Translations under genes and position numbers: made by a program
Part shown: in pieces, positions 1,542 through 27,968 of the stretch
Numbering within the stretch: the first letter of the stretch is position 1
Layout: each line of letters opens with the position of its first letter
The notes under the pieces: generated by a model
The model's input: the letters and a program-made list of their open reading frames with translations, nothing else
Databases searched by the model: none
Told to the model about the DNA's origin: nothing
Assembly (NCBI RefSeq): GCF_038096175.1
Contig: NZ_CP151099.1
Location: forward strand, 6,550,001-6,614,000
Origin: Nostoc sp. UHCC 0302
GTDB lineage: Bacteria > Cyanobacteriota > Cyanobacteriia > Cyanobacteriales > Nostocaceae
Direction of reading: 5' to 3'
Length of the DNA: 64,000 bases

Positions 1542-3701
1542 ATGGAACGGCGGACGTTTTTACACAAAATTGGCTCAATACTCGCGGTATTGGGGGTAAC
1601 TGAAGCTGAGTGGTTGACTTTAGGAAGTCGCTATTACCAAGCGCTGGCACAACCTAATTCGCGCAAGTTGGCATTATTAATCGGTATCAATCAATATCCA
1701 GAAAGTCCAGCCCTTAGCGGTTGTTTGACTGATGTGGAACTGCAAAAAGAACTTTTAATTCATCGCTTTGGCTTCCAAGCTTCAGATATCTTGACCTTAA
1801 CTGAAGAACAAGCTAATAGAGAATTCATCGAAGCTGCTTTTTTAGATCATCTCAGTCAGCAAGCAAGACCGGGTGATTTGGTTGTCTTCCACTTTAGCGG
1901 TTACGGGACTCGCGTCAAATTACCAACATCGCTAGAAACATTGCAGAATGCTCTAGTGCCAGTCAATGAGCAAGTAAAATCACAAGACGAAAAAATAGTC
2001 AACTACCTATTAGAAGAAACCTTATTGCTGTTGTTGCGATCGCTTCCTACAGAACACGTTACAGCAGTATTGGATACCAGCTACTACACTCCTAGCACAT
2101 CCCAGTTAGCAGCAACGCGAATTCGCGTCCGTCCAGAATCAACAGAAGCACAACTATCGACAGCAGAATTAGACTTTCAAAACAAAGTCAAAACTCAAAA
2201 CTCAAAAGTCAGTCCTCTTATTCTTACAGCCACCTCAGACCCTAAGCAGTTAGCCAGAGAAGCTTTATTTTCTGGTTTTAGTGCTGGATTATTTACTTAC
2301 GCCTTAACACAGTACTTGTGGGAATCAACCCCAGCCACAAAAATTCAATTCACTCTTTCCTACGTCGGAACTTCTCTTCATAAGTTGGGTAGCAAACAGC
2401 AGCCAGCGTTAATTAGTGAAAAGAAAAATCCCCAAGCAGTGTTACTTGCTGAGAATTTCCTCCCTGACTCTATTGTTGGTGGAGAAGGGGCAGTGACAGC
2501 AATTGAAGAGGACGGTAAAACAGCCCATCTGTGGTTAGGTGGATTACCTCCACAAGTGCTGGAATACTATGGAGTTAATTCTCGGCTGTCGCTGGTAACT
2601 GGAGAAGAGTTAGTATTGCGATCGCGCAGCGGGTTAAAAGCAAAAGCGCAAATTTCTGGTATTATCGGCGTAACTTCCTTACAAGTCGGGCAACTCGTTC
2701 AAGAAACAATCAGAGTATTACCCCGAAATGTGGGTTTAAAAATTGGTTTGGATACAGGACTCGAAAGAATTGAACGAGTAGATGCAACAAGTGCTTTAGC
2801 CGCATTTCCCCACGTGTCGAGTGTAGTAGCAGGGGAACAACCAGCCGATTACGTATTTGCTAAATTACAGCAACCTCCTGGCCGCTATGGTTTATTTACT
2901 CTGGGCAGTGAGCTAATTCCTAACACTGCTGGGGAAGTTGGGGAAGCAGTAAAATTAGCTATGCAGCGTTTAGCACCTAAATTTCAACCGCTGCTAGCAG
3001 CAAAGTTGTGGCGGCTGACAGAAAATGAAGGTTCTTCCCGGTTAGCAGTTAAAGCAACCTTAGAAATAATTAGCGGCATATCACCTCGCGCAGTCATGCA
3101 ACGCGCAACACTGCGAAATCAAATTTCTGAAAATTCAACAACTAAGCCACTTAGAACTCAGAACGGGCTAAACGCCCCGCTACCGCTAACACAACTTGTG
3201 CCTATTGGTAGTCGGATGCAATATCGCGTACAAAACCAGAGCGATCGCCCACTATATTTAATCTTACTAGGATTAAAAAACAATCGGACAACAGTTGCCT
3301 TCTACCCTTGGGAAACTCCCACAGACACAAATATTTCGGATACCCAACCCCTACTTAAACAAATAGTCATCGCCCCTAACGAAACCCTCGCCTTACCAGA
3401 AAATACTGCTGGGTCTGAATGGGCAGTTTCTGGGCCAGCTTTTGAGTGTGAACATCAACTAATCTTCAGTACTGCCCCTTTCACTGAAACTCTTGCCGCC
3501 TTGAATACGGCTAAATATCCCACAGCCGACCAACGGCCGATTAGCCCATTGTTGAACTCCCTAGAAGTTGCCCAAGCTTTGCTACAAGACTTACACAACG
3601 CTAGCGCAGTCAAAACTGAAGTCAATAGCACATCTGCTGACTCTTATATTTTGGATGTGAATAATTGGGCAAGTCTTAGTTTTAGTTTTCAAGTAGTGTA
3701 A
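1542..3701 (+). CDS. Caspase-fold protein with substituted catalytic dyad (pseudo-orthocaspase), Tat-exported
   Basis: A 719-residue protein with a caspase/peptidase C14 p20-like domain (about residues 40-300). Where active orthocaspases have SGHG and D-x-C-H-S-G, this protein has SGYG (Tyr121) and DTSYYT (Ser180), so both members of the His-Cys dyad are replaced. A Tyr/Ser variant of this kind is known among cyanobacterial pseudo-orthocaspases. The N-terminus starts MERRTFLHKIG followed by a hydrophobic stretch and ALAQ near residue 36, which looks like a twin-arginine signal. The region after about residue 310 is large and not assigned; it may be a binding or beta-rich domain. Proteolysis is unlikely; a scaffold or binding role outside the cytoplasm is inferred. 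Start ATG. Confidence 0.85.
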   Translation: MERRTFLHKIGSILAVLGVTEAEWLTLGSRYYQALAQPNSRKLALLIGINQYPESPALSGCLTDVELQKELLIHRFGFQASDILTLTEEQANREFIEAAFLDHLSQQARPGDLVVFHFSGYGTRVKLPTSLETLQNALVPVNEQVKSQDEKIVNYLLEETLLLLLRSLPTEHVTAVLDTSYYTPSTSQLAATRIRVRPESTEAQLSTAELDFQNKVKTQNSKVSPLILTATSDPKQLAREALFSGFSAGLFTYALTQYLWESTPATKIQFTLSYVGTSLHKLGSKQQPALISEKKNPQAVLLAENFLPDSIVGGEGAVTAIEEDGKTAHLWLGGLPPQVLEYYGVNSRLSLVTGEELVLRSRSGLKAKAQISGIIGVTSLQVGQLVQETIRVLPRNVGLKIGLDTGLERIERVDATSALAAFPHVSSVVAGEQPADYVFAKLQQPPGRYGLFTLGSELIPNTAGEVGEAVKLAMQRLAPKFQPLLAAKLWRLTENEGSSRLAVKATLEIISGISPRAVMQRATLRNQISENSTTKPLRTQNGLNAPLPLTQLVPIGSRMQYRVQNQSDRPLYLILLGLKNNRTTVAFYPWETPTDTNISDTQPLLKQIVIAPNETLALPENTAGSEWAVSGPAFECEHQLIFSTAPFTETLAALNTAKYPTADQRPISPLLNSLEVAQALLQDLHNASAVKTEVNSTSADSYILDVNNWASLSFSFQVV

Positions 3702-5771: not shown

Positions 5772-7589
5772 TCAGCGATACTGTTGAGCTTGAGTATTAA
5801 ACAAGTAAGCATAAGTCCCAGCCATCTGCATGAGTTCGTCATGAGTGCCACTCTCCACAATTTTGCCACCTGCCATGACATAAATGCGATCGGCCATTTT
5901 GACGGTAGATAAGCGATGGCTGATTAGGATAGCAGCTTGATTTTTGATAAGTTGACGGAACTGTTCAAATACTTCATATTCAGCTTTGGGATCCATTGCA
6001 CTGGTCGGTTCATCCAGAACAATCACCTGAGAATTGCGGAGAAATGCTCGCGCCAATGCGACCTTTTGCCACTGGCCAATACTCAATTCTTCTCCTTGAT
6101 CAAACAACTTACCTAACATGGTGTCATAACCTTTAGGTAACTTGCTAATAACGTCATCAGCACCAGAACGACGCGCAGCAGTAATAATACTTTCTCGCTC
6201 TGCTGGCAAATCAATATTACCTAACCAAATATTTTCTTGTGCCGTCAAGTGATACTTCGCGTAGTCTTGGAAAATCACGCTGATTTCACGGCGCAAATCT
6301 GCCATTTTATATTGACTGAGGTCAATACCATCAATAGTGATACTGCCAGAAGTGGGGTCATATAAGCGGCATAAAAGTTTAATTAAAGTAGTTTTCCCAG
6401 AGCCATTTTCCCCTACTAGCGCCACCACTTCTCCCGGTTTAATTGTCAAGTTGATATCTTTAAGTGCCTGACGGGTAGTAGTAGAGTATTGAAAATTTAC
6501 ATTGTTAAAAACGATGCCAGTTTGCATCGGTTGGGGTATTGGCTGTGGATTTGAAGGATCAACTAACTTAGGTTTCAGGTCAAGGAATTCGTAAAGATTA
6601 GCAAGAAATAAATTATCCTCATAAAGATTAGACACGCTAACTAACAAACTTCTAATATCGTTCTGCCCTCGTTGCAATGCTTGGTGATAAAGTACCAAAT
6701 CACCTAAACGCAAAATGCCTTGGATAGCTTGATAGACAATGAAAGCATAAACAGCAAAGATAAAAAGACCTGCGATCGCTTCTGCAAAGAAATTCGCCGC
6801 AGAGCGTTTGGTGTAAATGGCTATCTTTTCTTTATATATTTGTCGTCGGATACGGAGATACCATTTACTAAAGTATTCGCCTAAATTAAATAAGCGAATT
6901 TCTTTAGCGTACTGGTCTGATGTCAGCATCCAAACTAAGTACATTGCTTGCCGTTCCGGCTGTGTGCGTTTACGCTGCCAATGATACATGACGCGACTGT
7001 ATTTTAGCCGCACCAGTAGCGCTGGTAGAGCCGCCATAAATAAAACACCGATGATTCCCCAATGTAGCGACAGCAGCAAGCCTACCATCGCCACCAAGGA
7101 AATACTACTCTGGCCAACTTGTGCTAAACGATTGAGAATTTCGGGAGGTCGGTAAGGAGCTTCTTGCTGCGCTCGTTGTAAAGTATCGAAATATTGAGGA
7201 TTTTCGTAGTACTCTAAGTCAGTTGCAATTGATTTAGTATTAATAATTCCTTGCATATAGTCAGTTACGCGCTGAGAGTGGGCAGTAACGACTAGTTCCG
7301 ACAAAGAACTGCAAATACTACTTACAAGGGTGACAACACCAGCTAAAATAACCCAGAGTATGACATTACGAAAGGCAACTGTTTTATCAGCAACATTCAG
7401 GTTGGCAACGACTGCATCGATAATTAATTTGGTGAGATAGATTGATATTACAGGCAGTATGCCTTGGATAATTAACAATACTATGCGAGCGATCGTCCAA
7501 CCAGGACTACTTTGCCATACTAAGCGTAATGCAGGCAGAAGATGTAAAGTTTGTTGGATTTTTTGTTTGATGTTTTTGCCTGCTCGCAT
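5772..7589 (-). CDS. Lasso-peptide ABC exporter (D protein)
   Basis: A 605-residue half-transporter with an N-terminal membrane domain (several hydrophobic helices, about residues 30-330) fused to a nucleotide-binding domain. Walker A is GENGSGKTT (393-401), the signature is LSIGQ (502-506) and Walker B is VIVLDEP (522-528), with an H-loop in LISHRLST. It lacks the N-terminal C39 peptidase domain of bacteriocin exporters, which fits a pathway where a separate protein (B2) removes the leader. It is the last gene of the lasso cluster, 62 bases after the kinase gene, and most likely exports the mature lasso peptides and gives immunity. That assignment rests on family and position; the substrate is inferred. 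Confidence 0.88.
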   Translation of the reverse strand: MRAGKNIKQKIQQTLHLLPALRLVWQSSPGWTIARIVLLIIQGILPVISIYLTKLIIDAVVANLNVADKTVAFRNVILWVILAGVVTLVSSICSSLSELVVTAHSQRVTDYMQGIINTKSIATDLEYYENPQYFDTLQRAQQEAPYRPPEILNRLAQVGQSSISLVAMVGLLLSLHWGIIGVLFMAALPALLVRLKYSRVMYHWQRKRTQPERQAMYLVWMLTSDQYAKEIRLFNLGEYFSKWYLRIRRQIYKEKIAIYTKRSAANFFAEAIAGLFIFAVYAFIVYQAIQGILRLGDLVLYHQALQRGQNDIRSLLVSVSNLYEDNLFLANLYEFLDLKPKLVDPSNPQPIPQPMQTGIVFNNVNFQYSTTTRQALKDINLTIKPGEVVALVGENGSGKTTLIKLLCRLYDPTSGSITIDGIDLSQYKMADLRREISVIFQDYAKYHLTAQENIWLGNIDLPAERESIITAARRSGADDVISKLPKGYDTMLGKLFDQGEELSIGQWQKVALARAFLRNSQVIVLDEPTSAMDPKAEYEVFEQFRQLIKNQAAILISHRLSTVKMADRIYVMAGGKIVESGTHDELMQMAGTYAYLFNTQAQQYR

Positions 7590-7651
7590 AGTTAAAATTT
7601 CTACATTTAATGAATTTTTAATTTAAATTAGATTAAATCTAATCACATAAC

Positions 7652-8578
7652 CTATGCTATGGCTGGTTGGATTTTATCTGCTAAATCTTTTTCTACCAAA
7701 TGTGCTACATCAGGCAACAATTCTAAAGAGCGGGGTCGTTCTAAACTGTAAATAGGCAGATTGTTGATTAGACGAGTACATTGATGCAAGTGTACAGATG
7801 CATTAGCACTTCGGATAAATTTCTGACCAATTAACATCGGAATATAAGAATTAGCAATCAGTTGGGTTACTGCTGCTGGAGGTTGAAGAGGCTTGATTTG
7901 CAGAGTTGAACCTACAGAAAGTATGTAGATCCGTTTTAAAGTCAGAGGTGTACGTAAAAAGTTGTCGAAAGTGGGGCGATCGCGTTTCTCAACTTCCGGG
8001 TGAATCTTCCTCAAAGTTTCAGGATCATCCCCCAATGCTGCACTGGCTGCATCCGGCCACAGCTTGATCCGCGGAAATCCTGGAACTAATATTGGGCTGC
8101 TGGCGTTGTTAACATCTACAGCAGCTACATCATCTGCCATTAGTTTATGTCCTCGTCCATACAAGGTTGCAGCCATAGTAGACTTACCTTGCCCCGATCG
8201 CCCCAAAAAGACAGCAGCATTCCCATCGACAGCCACAGCGCTACCATGTAACACCAAAAACTGCCGCTGGTGAAGCAGCATTCCTAAGACTGCTCCTAAC
8301 AACGGAAGGCGAATCACACTCTCTTCTACATCTGGTAGGGGTTCGATAATAATTTCTTTTCCAGACCGTACTAAAAATTTACCTACTACTTTCCAGTATA
8401 AATAAGCATCTTCGCCATCTATCTCAAAGTAACTCCATGATGGGGGAGGCGTAGGTAAAGACCAATTGATTTCTCCAAAGCGGATAACTACATCTGCTTC
8501 TATATGTGTTGAACTTTGTAATTCTGGTAAAGGCAAAGCAGAGCAGATGCCCAAACCATAAGCTGTGTGATTATACAT
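7652..8578 (-). CDS. HPr-kinase-like lasso-peptide tailoring kinase
   Basis: A 308-residue protein related to the C-terminal kinase domain of HPr kinase/phosphorylase. It has the P-loop GRSGQGKST (126-134) preceded by LHGSAVAVDG and followed by GHKLMADDVAAVD, where the Asp-Asp pair (149-150) matches the HprK metal/catalytic site. There is no canonical HPr partner gene nearby. In lasso clusters such kinases (PadeK and SyanK types) phosphorylate the C-terminal Ser of the precursor; both precursors upstream end in Ser, so the same role is inferred. The ATG is preceded by GGAG at good spacing. It lies between the precursor genes and the exporter in the same orientation. Confidence 0.85.
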   Translation of the reverse strand: MYNHTAYGLGICSALPLPELQSSTHIEADVVIRFGEINWSLPTPPPSWSYFEIDGEDAYLYWKVVGKFLVRSGKEIIIEPLPDVEESVIRLPLLGAVLGMLLHQRQFLVLHGSAVAVDGNAAVFLGRSGQGKSTMAATLYGRGHKLMADDVAAVDVNNASSPILVPGFPRIKLWPDAASAALGDDPETLRKIHPEVEKRDRPTFDNFLRTPLTLKRIYILSVGSTLQIKPLQPPAAVTQLIANSYIPMLIGQKFIRSANASVHLHQCTRLINNLPIYSLERPRSLELLPDVAHLVEKDLADKIQPAIA

Positions 8579-8930
8579 TTCATCAACTCCATTCAGGGTA
8601 CACGTAACAAAAATTACTGCAAATTCTTACCCCTAAAAGCTTTATTTTACAAATAGAAAATATAGAGTTTCTATAGCAAACAATATTTATGACAATATAT
8701 TCTTATATTTTTGTTAAATTGATGGCTGTACTTTACTTAAAAGCAAAGAACAATTATTGTAATTTGTGTAAAGACCTCTGCTTAGTTGCGACCTAAACAG
8801 AGGTAAGTGCATCAAACGAACTGTATAGGCATTAGCCCATACACCACAATTAGCGGTAAATCATCACAGATATCTAGGTTAAAAAACTCAGATATCTTGA
8901 TTTACCCATTCTTATTACAAAACTTCTAAT
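8579..8930. other. Intergenic region between first precursor and kinase gene
   Basis: The 352 bases hold the three-hairpin element (8775-8906, listed separately) and then about 190 bases of AT-rich sequence leading to the kinase start. No further reading frame of the precursor type was found. The AT-rich half could hold a promoter for the kinase and exporter, but I cannot single out a convincing -35/-10 pair. Confidence 0.5.
8775..8906 (-). ncRNA. Conserved three-hairpin RNA element after precursor A1 (copy 1)
   Basis: Read on the minus strand, 24 bases after the precursor stop: (i) an outer stem GGTAAATCA (8898-8906) with TGATTTACC (8855-8863) enclosing inner arms AGATATCT and a U-rich loop; (ii) GTATGGGC-TAAT-GCCTATAC (8823-8842), one G-U pair; (iii) an 11-bp imperfect stem with CCTCTG/CAGAGG ends (8775-8803). 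The same three stems in the same order follow the second precursor with different bases that still pair, and the wobble positions pair only in minus-strand RNA. It is not a classical terminator because no U-run follows. It may stabilise or attenuate the precursor mRNA. Confidence 0.55.
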
Positions 8931-9077
8931 CTAGGAAAAAGTCAAATCCTTCTTGGGAGTCTTTGCAGGAAACGCTTTATCTAAAGTATTTCCATCACCC
9001 AGACCTTGGGTCAGAGTTTCAACTTCGCCATAAACAGTAAGCTTGGGTTGAACGTAGAGCTTTTTGTTAGAAGTCAT
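8931..9077 (-). CDS. Lasso-peptide precursor A1 (48 aa)
   Basis: A 48-codon gene. The 24-residue leader has the B1-recognition motif (YVQPKLTVYG, i.e. YxxPxLxxxG) and ends LTQ, with the conserved Thr at -2. The predicted core is 24 residues: ring segment GLGDGNTLD, which would close Gly1 to Asp9, then tail KAFPAKTPKKDLTFS. The ATG at 9077 is preceded by AAAGGA at good spacing; an in-frame upstream ATG at 9155 would add 26 residues without lasso features and is rejected. The core ends in Ser, the residue phosphorylated by kinases like the one encoded next. It is a paralogue of the precursor at 9375. Confidence 0.88.
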   Translation of the reverse strand: MTSNKKLYVQPKLTVYGEVETLTQGLGDGNTLDKAFPAKTPKKDLTFS

Positions 9078-9220
9078 GGTTGTATCCTTTGCTGTTTGTT
9101 GATTTTTTACATTGGTTCTATTAGAACCAAAATGAGTGACTGAATGTAAAATCACATAGCCTTAGTGATAGCCAAAAATGACAATTAAAGACTGTTATTT
9201 TGTGATTTTAATTCATGCAC

Positions 9221-9359
9221 CTGTTTAGTTATCACTAAACAGAAGTAAAGATATAAGACGAGTTGTACGGGCTTTAGCAGCCCATACATCACAATCAAAA
9301 GTAGATCATCAAAAATATCTAGGCTCAAAAAACTTAGATATCTTGATTTATCTACTTTT
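9221..9359 (-). ncRNA. Conserved three-hairpin RNA element after precursor A2 (copy 2)
   Basis: Second copy of the element, starting 16 bases after the A2 stop on the minus strand: (i) outer stem AAAAGTAGAT (complement of 9350-9359) with ATCTACTTTT (complement of 9297-9306), enclosing inner arms ATATCTA/TAGATAT and a U-rich loop; (ii) GTATGGGCT-GCTAA-AGCCCGTAC (9265-9287); (iii) CTGTTTAG-TGATAA-CTAAACAG (9221-9242). Compared with copy 1 the arms differ at many positions while pairing is kept. It lies between the two precursor genes, so it will be part of any A2-A1 message or its 3' end. Confidence 0.55.
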
Positions 9360-9374
9360 TATGCCAAACTCCTA

Positions 9375-9521
9375 TTAGGAGAAAGTCAGATCATCTTTAG
9401 GAGTAGATAAGGGAAAATCCTTATCTGTAAATAGGCCAAGGCCAAAACCTTGGGTCAGAACTTCGACTTCGCCATAAACAGTCAGTTTGGGCTTTTCATA
9501 GGACTTCTTTTGATTAATCAT
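9375..9521 (-). CDS. Lasso-peptide precursor A2 (48 aa)
   Basis: A second 48-codon precursor, short enough to be missed by length cut-offs. ATG at 9521 follows AAGGAG at ideal spacing. The leader begins MINQKKSYEKPKLTVYG, carries the same YxxPxLxxxG motif and ends LTQ. The core is a 9-residue ring segment GFGLGLFTD (Gly1 to Asp9) and a 15-residue tail KDFPLSTPKDDLTFS. Leader and tail are close to A1, while ring residues 2-8 differ strongly and are more hydrophobic here. It lies 214 bases downstream of the synthetase gene and upstream of A1, same strand. The C-terminal Ser is a likely kinase target. Confidence 0.88.
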   Translation of the reverse strand: MINQKKSYEKPKLTVYGEVEVLTQGFGLGLFTDKDFPLSTPKDDLTFS

Positions 9522-9735
9522 GATTTTTCTCCTTTGCTTTTTGGGGATTTTTGGTTTATTTTCAACCTCGGCTTTATTCAGATGCTGAGGAAGCAGCTGA
9601 GTGTGAAATTACACCCTTCGGGTAATAATCAGACTCGCTGTGCTGTTGGGTGTTCTTTTTTAGGTAACAGCCAACAGGACAATGATCTGACACATCAATA
9701 AAAGTTTTCTAGTATTATCAAAACTTTTGTTGATC

Positions 9736-11712
9736 TCAACTCTTGTTTGCAAGTTCATTAGGTCTATGTGATGCAGCATACTGCAACCATAAAGTTAAAG
9801 AAACAGCGATCCAAATTGTGTGGACATCTTTTGCTCTCGATAAAGATTGTGAACAGATAAACCTTTGATATGTCTGCTTGAGAACATCAACATTTACATA
9901 CTGTGCCATTTCTCCTAAATCATTTAGAATTAACTTGTCCAAGCGCGATCGCTCCAGGGATAACAAACCGTGGACGAGATTTGGAGAAAAATTCGCCTTA
10001 CCTCGACGCCATTGCACTTCCACAGGCAAAATATCAGCCATTGCCCGACGCATCACTATCCGGTTCCACCCCAGATGCAGCTTTTGTTCAGCAGGTAAGG
10101 AGAGACAAAACTCTACCAAACGCTTGTCCCAAAAGGGGTAGCGTTGTTCAAGAGCAAAGGCTGCACAAGTCTTGTCTTGCATCTCAGCCGCAAATGATGT
10201 TAAACCTTGAGTAAGATTGCGATAGTGTCTTTCTCTCTCATCTTGGCCAAAGTTACTCTGAAGTTTTTGCCAAGCCTCATGGCGCTTCTCAAGACCTATA
10301 CGCCCAACAAACTCAGGATTCAATATAGTACTCCAAGCAGGAATCTTTGCAGATTGCTTGTCTTGACGCACCTTGGAATCAGTCAATCTTTGCCAATTCT
10401 CTTGCAATAGTCTCAGGAGTGGGTATTTGGAAATTGTTGGTTTAATTCCATACTGTTTTACATAAGTCCATAGCCATCCCCAGAAATTTACACCGAAAGT
10501 TTTAGCCAGTTCTTTAACTTCTCTAGTCAAAGTGAACCAGCGACCTGCCCGTGCTAGTTCACTTAAATATCCATATCCATCTGATACGACGTTATCGCCA
10601 TCAAAACCGTCGAAAATAATACGAACACCTTGCTTTTGAATAGCCTCATACAAAGCCCAGCCCATAGACCAATTCGGTGCATAAAAGGCTTCATCTTGAT
10701 GCCAAAACATCTTGTCTAAGTTCTTCAACGGACTGAGTTGATCTCCATTGACATAATGCGGCTCAAGTCCACCTTGAGCAATAACTGCATTGATGTAAGG
10801 GCGTTCGTCACATTCCGTTAACTCATCAAAGACCGCCGAAAAGGTATGCAAGCGCTGCCCTCCATTTTCCGCAAGCAGTTTTCGCGCCATACAGGTAATA
10901 GAAGATGAATCTAATCCACCACTCAAATGAGAGCCAATAGGGAAAGCGCTACGCAGACGGCACTCAACTGCTTTAGTAAAAATTTCACGAAACGCTTGGG
11001 CGTATTCTTCATCAGAACCTAAACGCAATTCACGGTTAGGATCAAGAGACCAGTAGCATTGTAATTTTATTCCTTCAGTACTCACAGTCATACTGTAAGC
11101 CGGAGGCAATCGGAAGATATTTTTATAGGAGGTAATCTCTGGCTCATGAAACATTGATACCAGATAGTCACCTATCCTTACTTCATTAACTTGCTGAGGA
11201 ACATCTGGGAGACAAAATATAGCTTTGATCTCGCTGGCAAAAACAAAAGTTTGCTTAGACGAGTAGTAATAAAAGGGTTTAATCCCAAAATGGTCTCTGG
11301 CACAAAACATTATTTGCTTTCGCTGATCCCAAATCGCAAAGGCAAAATCACCAAGTAGATATTCTGGGCATTGCTCACCCCATTTTTCATAAGCAGCCAA
11401 TACTAGCTGGCTATCAGTTATTTTTTCTGCTGGAGAGTCATTCAACTCTAACGCATAGATAAGTTCATCCCGGTTATCTATACGAATATCCGCTGTAATG
11501 ACTAAATTGCTAATGTCATTGATTAAAGGCAACTTCTCCAATAGAGATTCAGGAGTAGTCCATAACATTCGATGACCCAGACCAACAGATTCAGAACACC
11601 AGGCATCTAACCCATCTGGCCCCCTGTGGGCAAGAATATTGACCATATGCGTCAGTTGCTGATGGTCAACCAGTTTGCCATCTAGATTGTAGATGCCGAT
11701 GATACCGCTCAT
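9736..11712 (-). CDS. Lasso-peptide macrolactam synthetase (C protein, asparagine-synthetase-like)
   Basis: A 658-residue protein of the class B asparagine synthetase fold. The N-terminal glutaminase-like domain starts MSGIIGIYN: residue 2 is Ser, not the nucleophilic Cys of true AsnB, so glutamine hydrolysis is unlikely. The C-terminal synthetase domain keeps the ATP pyrophosphatase motif SGGLDSS (264-270). In lasso pathways this enzyme adenylates the ring Asp/Glu side chain (here Asp9 of the core) and joins it to the Gly1 amine after leader removal. The start overlaps the B2 stop by 4 bases (ATGA), indicating translational coupling. Assignment rests on these motifs plus the adjacent B1, B2 and precursor genes. 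Confidence 0.92.
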   Translation of the reverse strand: MSGIIGIYNLDGKLVDHQQLTHMVNILAHRGPDGLDAWCSESVGLGHRMLWTTPESLLEKLPLINDISNLVITADIRIDNRDELIYALELNDSPAEKITDSQLVLAAYEKWGEQCPEYLLGDFAFAIWDQRKQIMFCARDHFGIKPFYYYSSKQTFVFASEIKAIFCLPDVPQQVNEVRIGDYLVSMFHEPEITSYKNIFRLPPAYSMTVSTEGIKLQCYWSLDPNRELRLGSDEEYAQAFREIFTKAVECRLRSAFPIGSHLSGGLDSSSITCMARKLLAENGGQRLHTFSAVFDELTECDERPYINAVIAQGGLEPHYVNGDQLSPLKNLDKMFWHQDEAFYAPNWSMGWALYEAIQKQGVRIIFDGFDGDNVVSDGYGYLSELARAGRWFTLTREVKELAKTFGVNFWGWLWTYVKQYGIKPTISKYPLLRLLQENWQRLTDSKVRQDKQSAKIPAWSTILNPEFVGRIGLEKRHEAWQKLQSNFGQDERERHYRNLTQGLTSFAAEMQDKTCAAFALEQRYPFWDKRLVEFCLSLPAEQKLHLGWNRIVMRRAMADILPVEVQWRRGKANFSPNLVHGLLSLERSRLDKLILNDLGEMAQYVNVDVLKQTYQRFICSQSLSRAKDVHTIWIAVSLTLWLQYAASHRPNELANKS

Positions 11713-12146
11713 ATCTTGTTTCCTGGCAAAGATGGCAGTTGGGTAAAGCGTGGAAGCTCTTTAAGATCACCAATTACAACTTGTCCTTGACTTTCAATCC
11801 ACGCATGAGCTTCTAATTTACCTTCTTGACTTTTGGCAACTCCTATACGCAGTTCTGGAGAATAACCACGGCGAGTCATTAATACTTGGCAAACTAAAGC
11901 ACGAGCCAGACATTTAGCACCACTGGGCATATACCGAGTGCTGACATTAATAGCCCAAATAATTTTACTAATAGGGGCTTGGTCTAGCCTTGGGTTTGGC
12001 TGGCTAATTCTAGCTAAAAGTTGCCGTAAGGTCTGAAATGGTAGCAACCACAATCCTAATTTGACTAATCCCAACAAAATAAAGCTATTTATCAAAAGAT
12101 AACGATCTTTATTAATGAGGCGTAGCAATTTAAGCAATTGCTTCAT
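11709..12146 (-). CDS. Lasso-peptide leader peptidase (B2, transglutaminase-like)
   Basis: A 145-residue protein with a hydrophobic N-terminal segment (about 15-45) and a transglutaminase-like cysteine protease core. The catalytic triad is visible as Cys79 in GAKCLARAL, His114 in EAHAWIE and Asp127 in VVIGD. It cleaves the leader from the precursor after the conserved Thr-x pair, working with B1. The gene starts inside the end of B1 (17-base overlap) and its stop overlaps the start of C, so B1, B2 and C form a tightly coupled operon. Confidence 0.9.
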   Translation of the reverse strand: MKQLLKLLRLINKDRYLLINSFILLGLVKLGLWLLPFQTLRQLLARISQPNPRLDQAPISKIIWAINVSTRYMPSGAKCLARALVCQVLMTRRGYSPELRIGVAKSQEGKLEAHAWIESQGQVVIGDLKELPRFTQLPSLPGNKI

Positions 12147-12432
12147 GTCTTATCTCGATCAGTCCTTTGGTTGCTAAGTCTTCAAGTAACACTAAAATGT
12201 CAGTTTCACAAGCTTGGGGATCAACTTCATACTCTGCCAATAAGGCATCCTTAATTTCTTTTACAGTCTTTGGATCTTGAATCAAATTCCAGATACTAGC
12301 TCCTACTTGATTTAATCCGTAGTAAACTCCTGAGTTGATATCGAGAATAACTGCTTCTCCTTGTAGTTCAGAGAAAATTTGATTCTTATTGACTACTACC
12401 CAAGAATGATCAGTCGATAATTGTACAGGCAT
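12130..12432 (-). CDS. Lasso-peptide leader-binding protein (B1, PqqD-like RRE)
   Basis: A 100-residue PqqD-like RiPP recognition element. The pattern is typical: a beta-rich N-terminus (EAVILDINSGVYYGLN) followed by helices (ASIWNLI, VKEIKDALLAEY) and a C-terminal helix (ETDILVLLEDLATKGLI). It binds the leader YxxPxLxxxG motif and delivers the precursor to B2. It is the first gene of the cluster, so the operon promoter should lie upstream of 12432; I see AT-rich sequence there but no clear -35/-10 pair. Confidence 0.9.
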   Translation of the reverse strand: MPVQLSTDHSWVVVNKNQIFSELQGEAVILDINSGVYYGLNQVGASIWNLIQDPKTVKEIKDALLAEYEVDPQACETDILVLLEDLATKGLIEIRHEAIA

Positions 12433-26240: not shown

Positions 26241-27968
26241 CTAATACTTCCTCTCCTGTGGCTCAAACATGGTAATTGCTACTGGGCGATACTGAATGTC
26301 AATTCCTGCTGGTGAATAATAAGCCATTGTGTGTTTGAGGAAATTAGTATCATCTCTTTGAGGATAATCTTCGCGGAAGTGTGCGCCGCGACTTTCCTGG
26401 CGATTTAGGGCTGATGCCAGAATGGTTTGCCCGACTACCATCAAACTCCGCAATTCTAAAGCTTCTACAATCTCTGTGTTCCAACAACTGCCTTTATCAT
26501 CTAAATAAATTTGTGGATATTGCTGTTGCAGTTGTTCAAGTTTGTGCAACCCTTCACGCATTAATTCCTCGGTACGGAAAACGCCACAATAATCAGTCAT
26601 ACAATCTTGGAAGGCTTGACGGACTTGGTTAATACGATACTGTCCTGGCTGTTCTAGCAAAGCTTGGATTTGTTGCTGGGCTTCCCTTTGATAACGTTGC
26701 TCATCTACAGAAGGCAACTTACGTTTTTGTACATATTGAGCGATCGCTGCCCCAGTTCGCTTGCCATAAACAACACATTCGAGTAGGGAATTACTACCGA
26801 GGCGATTTGCCCCATGTACAGAAACGCAAGAAGTTTCCCCAGCGGCAAAAAAGCCATCAACTAAACCATCGCCACTACTGCGAACTCGACCATCAGTGTT
26901 AACTGGGATACCACCCATACAATAGTGAATTGTCGGGCGGACTGGCATCGGCTGAGTCACTGCATCAATACCTACCAACCGATGTGCCTCTTCCCAGCAG
27001 AAGGGAACGCGGCTCATAATTTTTTCTTTGCCCATGTGCCGCAAGTCAAGATAGACAAAAGACCCGCCTGCACTGCCATCTTGATGAATACCACGACCGC
27101 CGCGAATTTCGTAAGTGATCGCCCGTGAGGTAATATCACGAGGAGCTAGTTCCATGCGGCTGGGTGCGTAGTTTTTCATAAAGCGATCGCCTTCGCTATT
27201 AATTAGATATGCTCCTTCTCCGCGTACAGCTTCTGAAATCAGCACTCCTACTGGATATAAACCAGTGGGATGAAATTGGACAAATTCCATATCTTCGAGG
27301 GGCAAACCTGCGATCGCAGTCATTGCTAGACCATCACCAGTGGAAGCATAATCATTAGAGGTGGTATTATAAACACGACCATAGCCCCCAGTAGCAAACA
27401 TAATTGCTTTAGCCCGCAATACCTCTATATGCCCATCCAAGAGGCTAAACATCACCAAACCTTTGGCTTGATCCTCTTCCAAAATCAAGCGCATTACGTA
27501 CCACTCTTGATACACTTGCACACCATAACGTCGCAAGTTATTTACTAATTCGTGCAAAATTGCATGACCAGTCTTATCAGCGGCGTAACAAGTGCGATTA
27601 TGAGAATGTCCACCAAAAGCTCTTTGAGCTATGCGACCATCCGGCAAGCGCGAGAATAAAACGCCCATGTGTTCCAAGTCAATCACCACATCCGGCGCTT
27701 CTTGGGCTAAAATTGCTACCGCATCTTGGTCTGCCAAATAATCAGAACCCTTGACAGTATCAAAAGCGTGTGCTTGCCAACTATCCTCAGTATCAACATT
27801 TTTCAGCGATGCCGCCATCCCACCTTGAGCAGCAACTGAGTGGGAACGAATGGGGTGAGTTTTGGCAACCACCGCAATATTTAAACTGGGGTCAGTTCGG
27901 GCAATTTCCACAGCAGCGCGGCATCCCGCCAATCCACCACCAACAATAATCACATCATGTTCCAGCAT
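26241..27968 (-). CDS. sdhA: Succinate dehydrogenase/fumarate reductase flavoprotein subunit
   Basis: A 575-residue FAD-binding subunit oxidising succinate to fumarate in the respiratory chain. ATG at 27968 gives MLEHDVIIVGGGLAG, the N-terminal Rossmann motif; an upstream in-frame start would add 20 residues without family support. RSHSVAAQGG holds the His to which FAD is covalently bound, HSHNRTCYA and FHPTGLY belong to the substrate domain, and GANRLGSNSLLECVVYG to the C-terminal FAD region. The iron-sulfur subunit gene is not adjacent, as is common in cyanobacteria. Confidence 0.93.
   Translation of the reverse strand: MLEHDVIIVGGGLAGCRAAVEIARTDPSLNIAVVAKTHPIRSHSVAAQGGMAASLKNVDTEDSWQAHAFDTVKGSDYLADQDAVAILAQEAPDVVIDLEHMGVLFSRLPDGRIAQRAFGGHSHNRTCYAADKTGHAILHELVNNLRRYGVQVYQEWYVMRLILEEDQAKGLVMFSLLDGHIEVLRAKAIMFATGGYGRVYNTTSNDYASTGDGLAMTAIAGLPLEDMEFVQFHPTGLYPVGVLISEAVRGEGAYLINSEGDRFMKNYAPSRMELAPRDITSRAITYEIRGGRGIHQDGSAGGSFVYLDLRHMGKEKIMSRVPFCWEEAHRLVGIDAVTQPMPVRPTIHYCMGGIPVNTDGRVRSSGDGLVDGFFAAGETSCVSVHGANRLGSNSLLECVVYGKRTGAAIAQYVQKRKLPSVDEQRYQREAQQQIQALLEQPGQYRINQVRQAFQDCMTDYCGVFRTEELMREGLHKLEQLQQQYPQIYLDDKGSCWNTEIVEALELRSLMVVGQTILASALNRQESRGAHFREDYPQRDDTNFLKHTMAYYSPAGIDIQYRPVAITMFEPQERKY

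Follow-up and report, generated by a model that had tools for sequence, protein, structure and literature searches.

We examine a lasso-peptide gene cluster in a 64,000-nucleotide stretch of the genome of Nostoc sp. UHCC 0302 (contig NZ_CP151099.1, positions 6,550,001 to 6,614,000; the window in what follows), together with related precursor genes elsewhere in the same 9.59 Mb genome. The gene set makes it almost certain that the window locus is a class II-type lasso-peptide cluster, that is, one with a Cys-free core. We will argue that it is fairly probable that this one enzyme set serves five precursors, three of them in trans, with phosphorylation at the C-terminal Ser24. A sequence-only reading of the window had proposed a complete minus-strand cluster with overlapping B1-B2-C genes, two precursors, a kinase and an ABC exporter, making two phosphorylated lasso peptides. 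All seven genes are confirmed, and phosphorylation appears to be the best explanation for the kinase; the system is, however, larger than was thought, with three more precursors elsewhere in the genome.

The cluster B1-B2-C-A-A'-K-D is intact at window positions 5772-12432, with all genes on the minus strand. The features are given below in the order of transcription.

12130-12432, minus: B1, stand-alone recognition element (PqqD-like) of ribosomally synthesized and post-translationally modified peptides (RiPPs), 100 aa; PF05402 76.2 bits
11709-12146, minus: B2, leader peptidase (transglutaminase-like), 145 aa; PF13471 89.1 bits
9736-11712, minus: C, lasso macrolactam cyclase (AsnB-like), 658 aa; NF033535 971.4 bits (cut-off 525)
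8793-9552, minus: tandem duplication of a ~445-bp unit (precursor plus flanks); direct repeats, start-to-start 442-446, 73-82% identity
9375-9521, minus: precursor A1, 48 aa, predicted core GFGLGLFTDKDFPLSTPKDDLTFS (ring Gly1-Asp9, C-terminal Ser24); NF033528/NF033521 matches
8931-9077, minus: precursor A2, 48 aa, predicted core GLGDGNTLDKAFPAKTPKKDLTFS; NF033528/NF033521 matches
7652-8578, minus: K, HPrK/PEPCK-type (HprK-like) peptide kinase, 308 aa; H111, GRSGQGKST (K132, S133), D149-D150
5772-7589, minus: D, MsbA/McjD-type ABC exporter, 605 aa; PF00005 127.9 bits

Gene content and motifs are direct observations here. From the coordinates, B1 and B2 overlap by 17 nt, and B2 and C by 4 nt. 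Checking the recognition element, B2 and C against profile models, as had been suggested, places all three above lasso-specific cut-offs: B1 with the lasso PqqD chaperone model NF033536 (83.2 bits, cut-off 80), B2 with NF033537 (118.2 bits, cut-off 33), and C with NF033535. Among PDB sequences, B1 matches the lasso PqqD chaperone 9x90_B (E 2.1e-15) and TbiB1 5v1u_A (E 1.1e-13). For the exporter, MsbA-like models match under their cut-offs. The identity of C to two Nostoc strains, the closest named relatives at the locus, is 82%, and that of K to one of them is 84%.

The B2 residues Cys79, His114 and Asp127 had been singled out in the sequence-only reading. The first two are invariant in all 114 aligned rows, but Asp127 has to be rejected as a catalytic residue because its column is not conserved (Asp in 4 of 114 rows, two of them the window's own protein). 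The commoner acidic position is column 130, with Asp in 62 of the 114 rows and Glu in the window protein. The cyclase features pointed out at the same time are real: SGGLDSS is conserved, and the Ser at position 2 is the rule in the clade (125 of 134 aligned rows).

Both clustered precursors have the YxxPxL leader motif, Thr at position -2, and a core with a suitable residue 1 and an Asp/Glu at positions 7-9. The two cores are 24 residues long, with Gly1, Asp9, a C-terminal Ser and no Cys, and a nine-residue ring would fit. Against the lasso_cyano model NF033528 they score 32.5 and 32.1 bits, slightly under the cut-off of 33, and against the leader model NF033521 they score 25.7 and 20.0 bits, over the cut-off of 19. 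For A2, homology favors the ATG at 9077 as the start, while the listed 74-aa open reading frame (ORF) from 9155 uses an upstream GTG. The repeats suggest that A1 and A2 arose by tandem duplication of the ~445-bp unit. In addition, hairpin-forming sequence follows each clustered precursor (window 9279-9377, z -3.57; 8834-8933, z -2.64), and the corresponding hairpin in the Nostoc locus L082 gives z -1.90 against shuffles. A conserved RNA element 3' of the precursors was nevertheless rejected, as the consensus of an eight-sequence alignment reaches only -1.08 kcal/mol even though single hairpins beat shuffles. An Rfam scan of the window at gathering scores returned three tRNAs only.

We now consider the precursors that lie outside the cluster. 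A precursor-model search covering 192 genomes of the host's family gave five full-length matches in the host genome itself (E 7.9e-26 to 5.4e-23), the next match being at E 2.7. Three of the five are dispersed (E 1.3e-24 to 5.4e-23) on contigs C1 and C3.

C1:4608094-4608237: dispersed precursor, 48 aa, predicted core GQNNGDALDKDFPAGTPRGKLTFS; precursor-model search
C1:1310080-1310223: dispersed precursor, 48 aa, predicted core GFGKGNSLDKDFPIETPKGSLTFS; precursor-model search
C3:326200-326343: dispersed precursor, 48 aa, predicted core GLKDGSALDKDFPTGTPRGKLTFS; precursor-model search

The two orphans on C1 are 1.95 and 5.25 Mb from the cluster B2, and the third is on the 358-kb contig C3. Within ~6 kb on either side of the three, no match to B1, B2, C, K or D was found at E<=1. 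The orphan genes are intact ATG ORFs, most with a Shine-Dalgarno-like sequence upstream, and all five precursors of this genome, clustered and dispersed, end in Ser. On the enzyme side, the counts at the stated thresholds are one each: B2 is unique in the genome (PF13471; NF033537 at E<=1e-8), C is the sole match over the NF033535 cut-off (two AsnB-like paralogues score 224 and 133 bits), and K is the one kinase match at E<=1e-30. The best reading is that this one enzyme set serves all five precursors, and we consider it quite probable that the three dispersed ones are processed in trans.

In the mechanism that we propose, B1 would bind the leader (YxxPxLxxYGxVxxLT) of any of the five precursors and hand the precursor to K, which would phosphorylate the C-terminal Ser24. 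B2 would then cleave after Thr(-2)-Gln/Lys(-1), C would form the Gly1-Asp9 isopeptide ring around the tail, and D would export the finished product. The same enzymes would also process the precursors at ~4.608 Mb and ~1.310 Mb of C1 and at ~326 kb of C3, which would give the cell a repertoire of five or more lasso peptides whose tail, DKxFPxxTPxxxLTFS, is nearly constant and whose ring varies. The calculated monoisotopic masses of the lasso forms are 2599.285 Da for A1, 2502.312 Da for A2 and 2487.214, 2523.264 and 2489.291 Da for the three orphans, to which a phosphate would add 79.966 Da. Every enzymatic step, as well as Ser24 phosphorylation and processing in trans, is modeled here on characterized relatives.

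The alternative that has to be weighed first is that the enzymes use the two clustered precursors only, the distant three being relics or recruited otherwise, which would make this an ordinary two-product cluster. We regard this as unlikely. The orphans are intact and keep every residue that the machinery should need. In ten cluster and orphan copies, taken from this genome and from G283, a genome of another genus with three clustered and two dispersed precursors, the invariant residues are Y8, P11, L13, G17, V19, L22 and T23 in the leader and G1, G5, D9, K10, F12, P13, T16, L21, T22, F23 and S24 in the core, and the most variable core positions are 2, 3, 4, 6, 7, 14, 15, 19 and 20. The precursor genes are under purifying selection, with pooled ratios of nonsynonymous to synonymous change (pN/pS) over 12 precursors of 0.34 for the leader and 0.41 for the core, well below 1, although pS is near saturation and the ratios are rough. 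Selection has kept the residues expected to be needed by the enzymes, plus most of the tail. The cores of the C3 orphan and of the orphan on contig C81 of G283, from two genera, differ by 8 synonymous codons and 1 nonsynonymous codon. This conservation is seen even though the loci share no neighbor genes, except for one weak 34% match between two G283 loci, and a comparison of the surroundings of the C3 and C81 orphans gave no protein match.

Several observations, besides the roughness of pN/pS, speak against trans processing. The C3 and C81 leaders are much less constrained than the cores, with 6 synonymous against 9 nonsynonymous codon differences (ratio 0.71), and the orphan precursors score under the NF033528 cut-off (21.9-31.3, cut-off 33). 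In G283 the orphans need not rely on the related cluster, because that genome encodes another B2 at a different place. Enzyme-free dispersed precursors are confirmed in only 2 of the 73 genomes with precursor matches; in the clusters examined, the search for precursors was made next to the enzymes and found them there, and five close kinase relatives (g195) keep one precursor, inside the cluster, with an identical core near A1 in all five genomes examined. Finally, the kinase count in the host genome depends on a single threshold, and the count of one enzyme set covers B2, C and K, not B1-like (PqqD) proteins.

The count of two genomes comes from a distance check in which 15 of 116 precursor rows lie more than 6 kb from any compared B2 row, five of the 15 being the orphans described here. 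The check used 104 B2 rows, down to G252:C3:992177; the weaker rows, none of which is in the host genome or G283, were left out. Further dispersed candidates in other Nostocaceae were rejected on inspection of their surroundings: G412 C58, C200 and C244 and G408 C122 have a cyclase and/or kinase alongside, the G252 candidate has a cyclase alongside (L032), and a G487 row has a kinase match within 2 kb. Three G467 rows, ~11 kb from a B2, and the G500 C137 row, on a 3.7-kb contig, are possible further cases.

The idea that the orphans are recent mobile copies is likewise unsupported, as blastn similarity among the dispersed copies (65-82%) is mostly confined to the gene region: it covers the gene and as much as ~60 nt before it, and for some pairs also as much as ~75 nt after it. 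The genes tested around the C1 orphans encode a GTPase, a mechanosensitive-channel protein, a sensor kinase and a TrkA-N protein; the two tested near the C3 orphan gave no Pfam match. Near one orphan (L240) there is a gene for what we take, from its sequence, to be an IS630-like transposase. A check of C3 as a plasmid found no overlap of the contig ends, and the Nostoc plasmid that matches best aligns with 10% of the sequence surrounding the orphan. To return to processing of all five precursors by one enzyme set, we see about an even chance that this genome-wide family, two members in cis and three in trans with upstream regions of their own, yields a phosphorylated library whose make-up could vary with conditions.

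We next consider the kinase. Its residues H111, K132, S133 and D149-D150 are of the kinds reported for lasso kinases (PMC9266682, PMC10368454), and it has the HprK-like motifs (H, GxxGxGKS, DD) of the paeninodin-like phosphorylated lasso family. Its assignment as HprK-like in the sequence-only reading is thus upheld, but in the model check that went with it K scores below all the curated cut-offs listed (TIGR04352 42.8 against 200, Pfam Hpr_kinase_C 33.1 against 33.3). These low scores are what would favor an inactive accessory protein, the products then being plain lasso peptides. We consider this very improbable: the catalytic residues are nearly invariant in 51 aligned kinases (H111 in 50, K132 in 51, S133 in 50, D149 in 49 and D150 in 51), and the structure model of K is confident, with a mean predicted local distance difference test score of 90.8. 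A Foldseek search with the model gives PEPCK as the best PDB match (E 1e-8, template-modeling score to the query about 0.5-0.6), and HprK/P matches at E 3e-7 with a score of about 0.34. As shown below, a kinase is moreover present in nearly all related clusters.

To place the kinase among its relatives, a census was made starting from 137 cyclase instances above 400 bits (loci L032-L159 and the window). After exclusion of 21 instances sharing an already counted core and 18 without a recognized precursor, 98 clusters were left, 84 of them cyanobacterial; the leader pattern used to find precursors demands a Thr close to the cleavage site, so that others are missed. A same-strand kinase is present in 95 of the 98 non-duplicate clusters. 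Of the three others, two (L057 and L084) are truncated where their contigs end, and one (L159) has its kinase on the opposite strand. Within the class as sampled, a cyclase match at E<=1e-100 occurs in 45 of 388 genomes, 40 of them with a score over the NF033535 cut-off.

As for the site, PadeK, ThcoK and SyanK phosphorylate a C-terminal Ser on the linear precursor, and PsmK likewise targets a C-terminal Ser (PMC9266682). We find it distinctly likely that K does the same at Ser24, in the manner of paeninodin. What makes Ser24 the best guess is that both clustered cores end in Ser and that Ser-ending precursors are frequent in the clade of K. This clade has 16 rows (96/89), nine with other Ser-ending precursors, four with LTFS and three others; five of the 95 kinases were too short and were omitted from the tree.

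It is possible, though in our view quite unlikely, that K instead acts on another conserved residue (Thr16 or Thr22), or that the phosphate serves further tailoring. Two HprK-like kinases, BsfK from a lasso cluster (PMC10368454) and LppK from a non-lasso RiPP cluster (PMC13381572), phosphorylate Ser3 of the core, and Thr16 and Thr22 are as conserved as Ser24, being invariant in all 12 aligned LTFS-type precursors. The census also has a bearing on this, since only 29 of the 95 kinase clusters have any Ser-ending precursor, leaving 66 without; kinase presence alone does not, therefore, predict a C-terminal phospho-Ser. Ser-ending cores number 33 of 126 overall, and in the class sample alone they occur in 12 of 43 clusters. 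Among the cores not ending in Ser, 48 of 93 carry [GSD]Sx[DN] at an internal site of the tail (shuffle mean 10.9, maximum 23 in 2000), a motif picked after viewing the sequences and a kind of count that relatedness inflates. For most of the sampled relatives the C-terminal Ser cannot be the phosphosite, and other sites have to be considered in the clade. A further point against a strictly C-terminal Ser is that it is not always kept: some cores of G283 and Calothrix PCC 7716 run past LTFS (GTF, DTY, ETPMRG). On the other hand, 32 of the 36 kinases of GSxD type fall in one 42-row clade (99/89) apart from the window kinase, and the five precursors of this genome and the Priestia paeninodin-family relative all end in Ser, which keeps Ser24 as the favored site.

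It should be pointed out that the cyclase tree groups the same 16 rows (support 91, unstarred), and contains a 42-row group of the same make-up too. Since cyclase and kinase trees group alike, each cluster has been inherited as a whole and the kinase is not alone in showing the split; coevolution of the kinase in particular with the tail type cannot be separated from this.

Non-cyanobacterial controls were small in number: 26 loci, made up of six plasmid records and 20 of 35 B2 places, picked mostly because the B2 frame was not long enough to be a fused B, were searched for kinases and precursors. By our reading of the loci that have a kinase and a plausible precursor, the precursor ends in Ser at L182, L183, L188, L191, L193, L198 and L210, but does not at L190, L195, L207 and L209. 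At L189 the precursor ends in Ser and a kinase was not found at that locus. The control loci give no clean rule linking the kinase to a Ser-ending precursor.

The tail of the core recurs far outside the cyanobacteria. The core DxxFxxxTPxxx(L/V)T(F/L)(E)S is found in Nostoc, Mesorhizobium, Sulfitobacter, an acidobacterium and Priestia. In an alignment of 12 precursors, from the window, G283, Nostoc, Calothrix PCC 7716, Mesorhizobium, Sulfitobacter, a Pyrinomonadaceae metagenome-assembled genome (MAG) and Priestia, the Asp, Phe, Thr-Pro and Thr columns are invariant in 12 of 12, and the Ser falls in one shared column in 11, the Priestia peptide having one extra residue ahead of its final Ser. 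The Priestia cluster is annotated as paeninodin family, with the core ...DAAFPTHTPKGDLTFES. Its precursor matches the paeninodin-family model NF033524 at 57.7 bits and the other seven precursors tested do not; for the two clustered window precursors there is no match at E<=1. The window system would work like paeninodin but falls outside the NF033524 precursor subfamily. Cyclase identity to the window C is 50% for Pyrinomonadaceae, 40-41% for Mesorhizobium and 30% for Priestia.

The shared core is widely spread yet rare in the sampled genomes. Among 289 genomes of the Mesorhizobium class, three have any match at E<=0.001, with a whole-model match only in the query's own genome, and among 162 of the Pyrinomonadaceae class, 14 have any match, with a full-length one only in the query genome. 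The occurrence of one tail in Cyanobacteriota, Pseudomonadota, Acidobacteriota and Bacillota despite diverged enzymes may point to a shared target or role. Two smaller observations concern these loci. The Priestia paeninodin-family kinase (L182:4708-5643) is annotated as 'aldolase' but aligns with the window K (30% over 305 columns), so that this is probably a mis-annotation. The Sulfitobacter indolifex plasmid L210 has, near an exporter gene, a second unannotated precursor-like stretch (record 27293-27409, minus; E 0.01), separate from the precursor ahead of B1.

The gene order of the window had been called unusual. Among cyanobacteria it is not: in 61 of the 84 cyanobacterial clusters the six gene kinds are all present on one strand, and 49 of the 61 contain them in the order B1-B2-C-A-K-D (repeats collapsed), which is the commonest cyanobacterial order. 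The remark does hold with respect to the published orders given in PMC5067487, A-B1-B2-C-K-D for proteobacteria and C-A-K-B1-B2-D for firmicutes, both unlike that of the window.

Compared with known systems, the cluster resembles the paeninodin type (PadeA/K/B1/B2/C/D of Bacillota; SyanK of proteobacteria) in its split B1/B2, AsnB-like C, HprK-like K, exporter D and C-terminal Ser. It differs in its order B1-B2-C-A-A-K-D, in a leader of the NF033521/NF033528 kind instead of NF033524, and in the additional precursors in trans; C and K are each ~30% identical to the Priestia paeninodin-family proteins, while the tail is nearly the same. With other cyanobacterial lasso clusters (NF033535 cyclase, NF033528 precursor) it shares the cyclase family, the order and the kinase, but it belongs to a small LTFS-ending branch and has dispersed precursors. 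The Mesorhizobium and Sulfitobacter clusters (L151-L158, L210) have the tail LDxxFxxxTPxxx(L/V)T(F/L)S, a C-terminal Ser, a kinase and an exporter as well, and the Mesorhizobium order, A-B1-B2-C-K-D, is different.

Prochlorosin lanthipeptides of marine picocyanobacteria offer a parallel for the dispersed precursors, in that one enzyme acts on many precursors, some encoded far from it. Their chemistry is different, and the window system is a lasso system with five precursors. In the citrulassin lasso peptides the pathway is split between the cluster and a distant locus with an unclustered peptidylarginine deiminase (PMC12971885); there it is the tailoring enzyme that is distant, and here the precursors. 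The lasso parts that the literature, as far as covered, places 'elsewhere in the genome' are a tailoring enzyme and transporter components. The passages on Roseofilum lasso clusters in PMC9967302 describe a recognition element, B2 and cyclase flanked by transporter genes and do not mention a kinase; the same source calls lasso peptides underexplored in Cyanobacteria.

Cyanobacterial lasso clusters, split B proteins and phosphorylated lasso peptides are thus already known. New here are the dispersed precursors within one genome, the tail recurring across phyla, and a census rich in kinases but poor in Ser. A phrase search of the open-access literature returned no lasso orphan or prochlorosin-like distant precursors, which does not establish their absence from print, and a fixed-phrase search of it on cyanobacterial lasso peptides returned no paper. 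Lasso mining normally seeks the precursor beside the enzymes, so that cluster-based tools would miss products if distant precursors are processed. Lasso systems would in that case be a further kind of RiPP in which one enzyme set handles many scattered substrates. Several natural variants of one core in one genome would also make the role of lasso phosphorylation more testable, and the census calls into question the C-terminal Ser as the expected mark of kinase-bearing cyanobacterial lasso clusters.

A few minor observations were made along the way. Asp or Glu is present at core positions 7-9 in 103 of 126 related cores; the other 23 lack it under the Thr(-2) rule (e.g. L060, L064, L069, L073, L114, L115 and L128), and several of these have an Asp at ~10-15 in a G/S-rich stretch, where either the cut site or the size of the ring may be different. 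Genes for lasso-type cyclases and kinases also occur in the archaeal-labeled contigs L148, L133, L134 and L209. Three of these are from MAGs, one of Methanobacteriaceae and two of Euryarchaeota, with contamination a possibility; the other is plasmid pHALXA01 of Halopiger xanaduensis, on which the precursor-like ORF has Thr as its last residue. In the window itself, ~2 kb past the end of the exporter gene, positions 1542-3701 encode a protein of 719 aa whose caspase-like Peptidase_C14 domain scores 75.1 bits; this protein is probably unrelated to the cluster.

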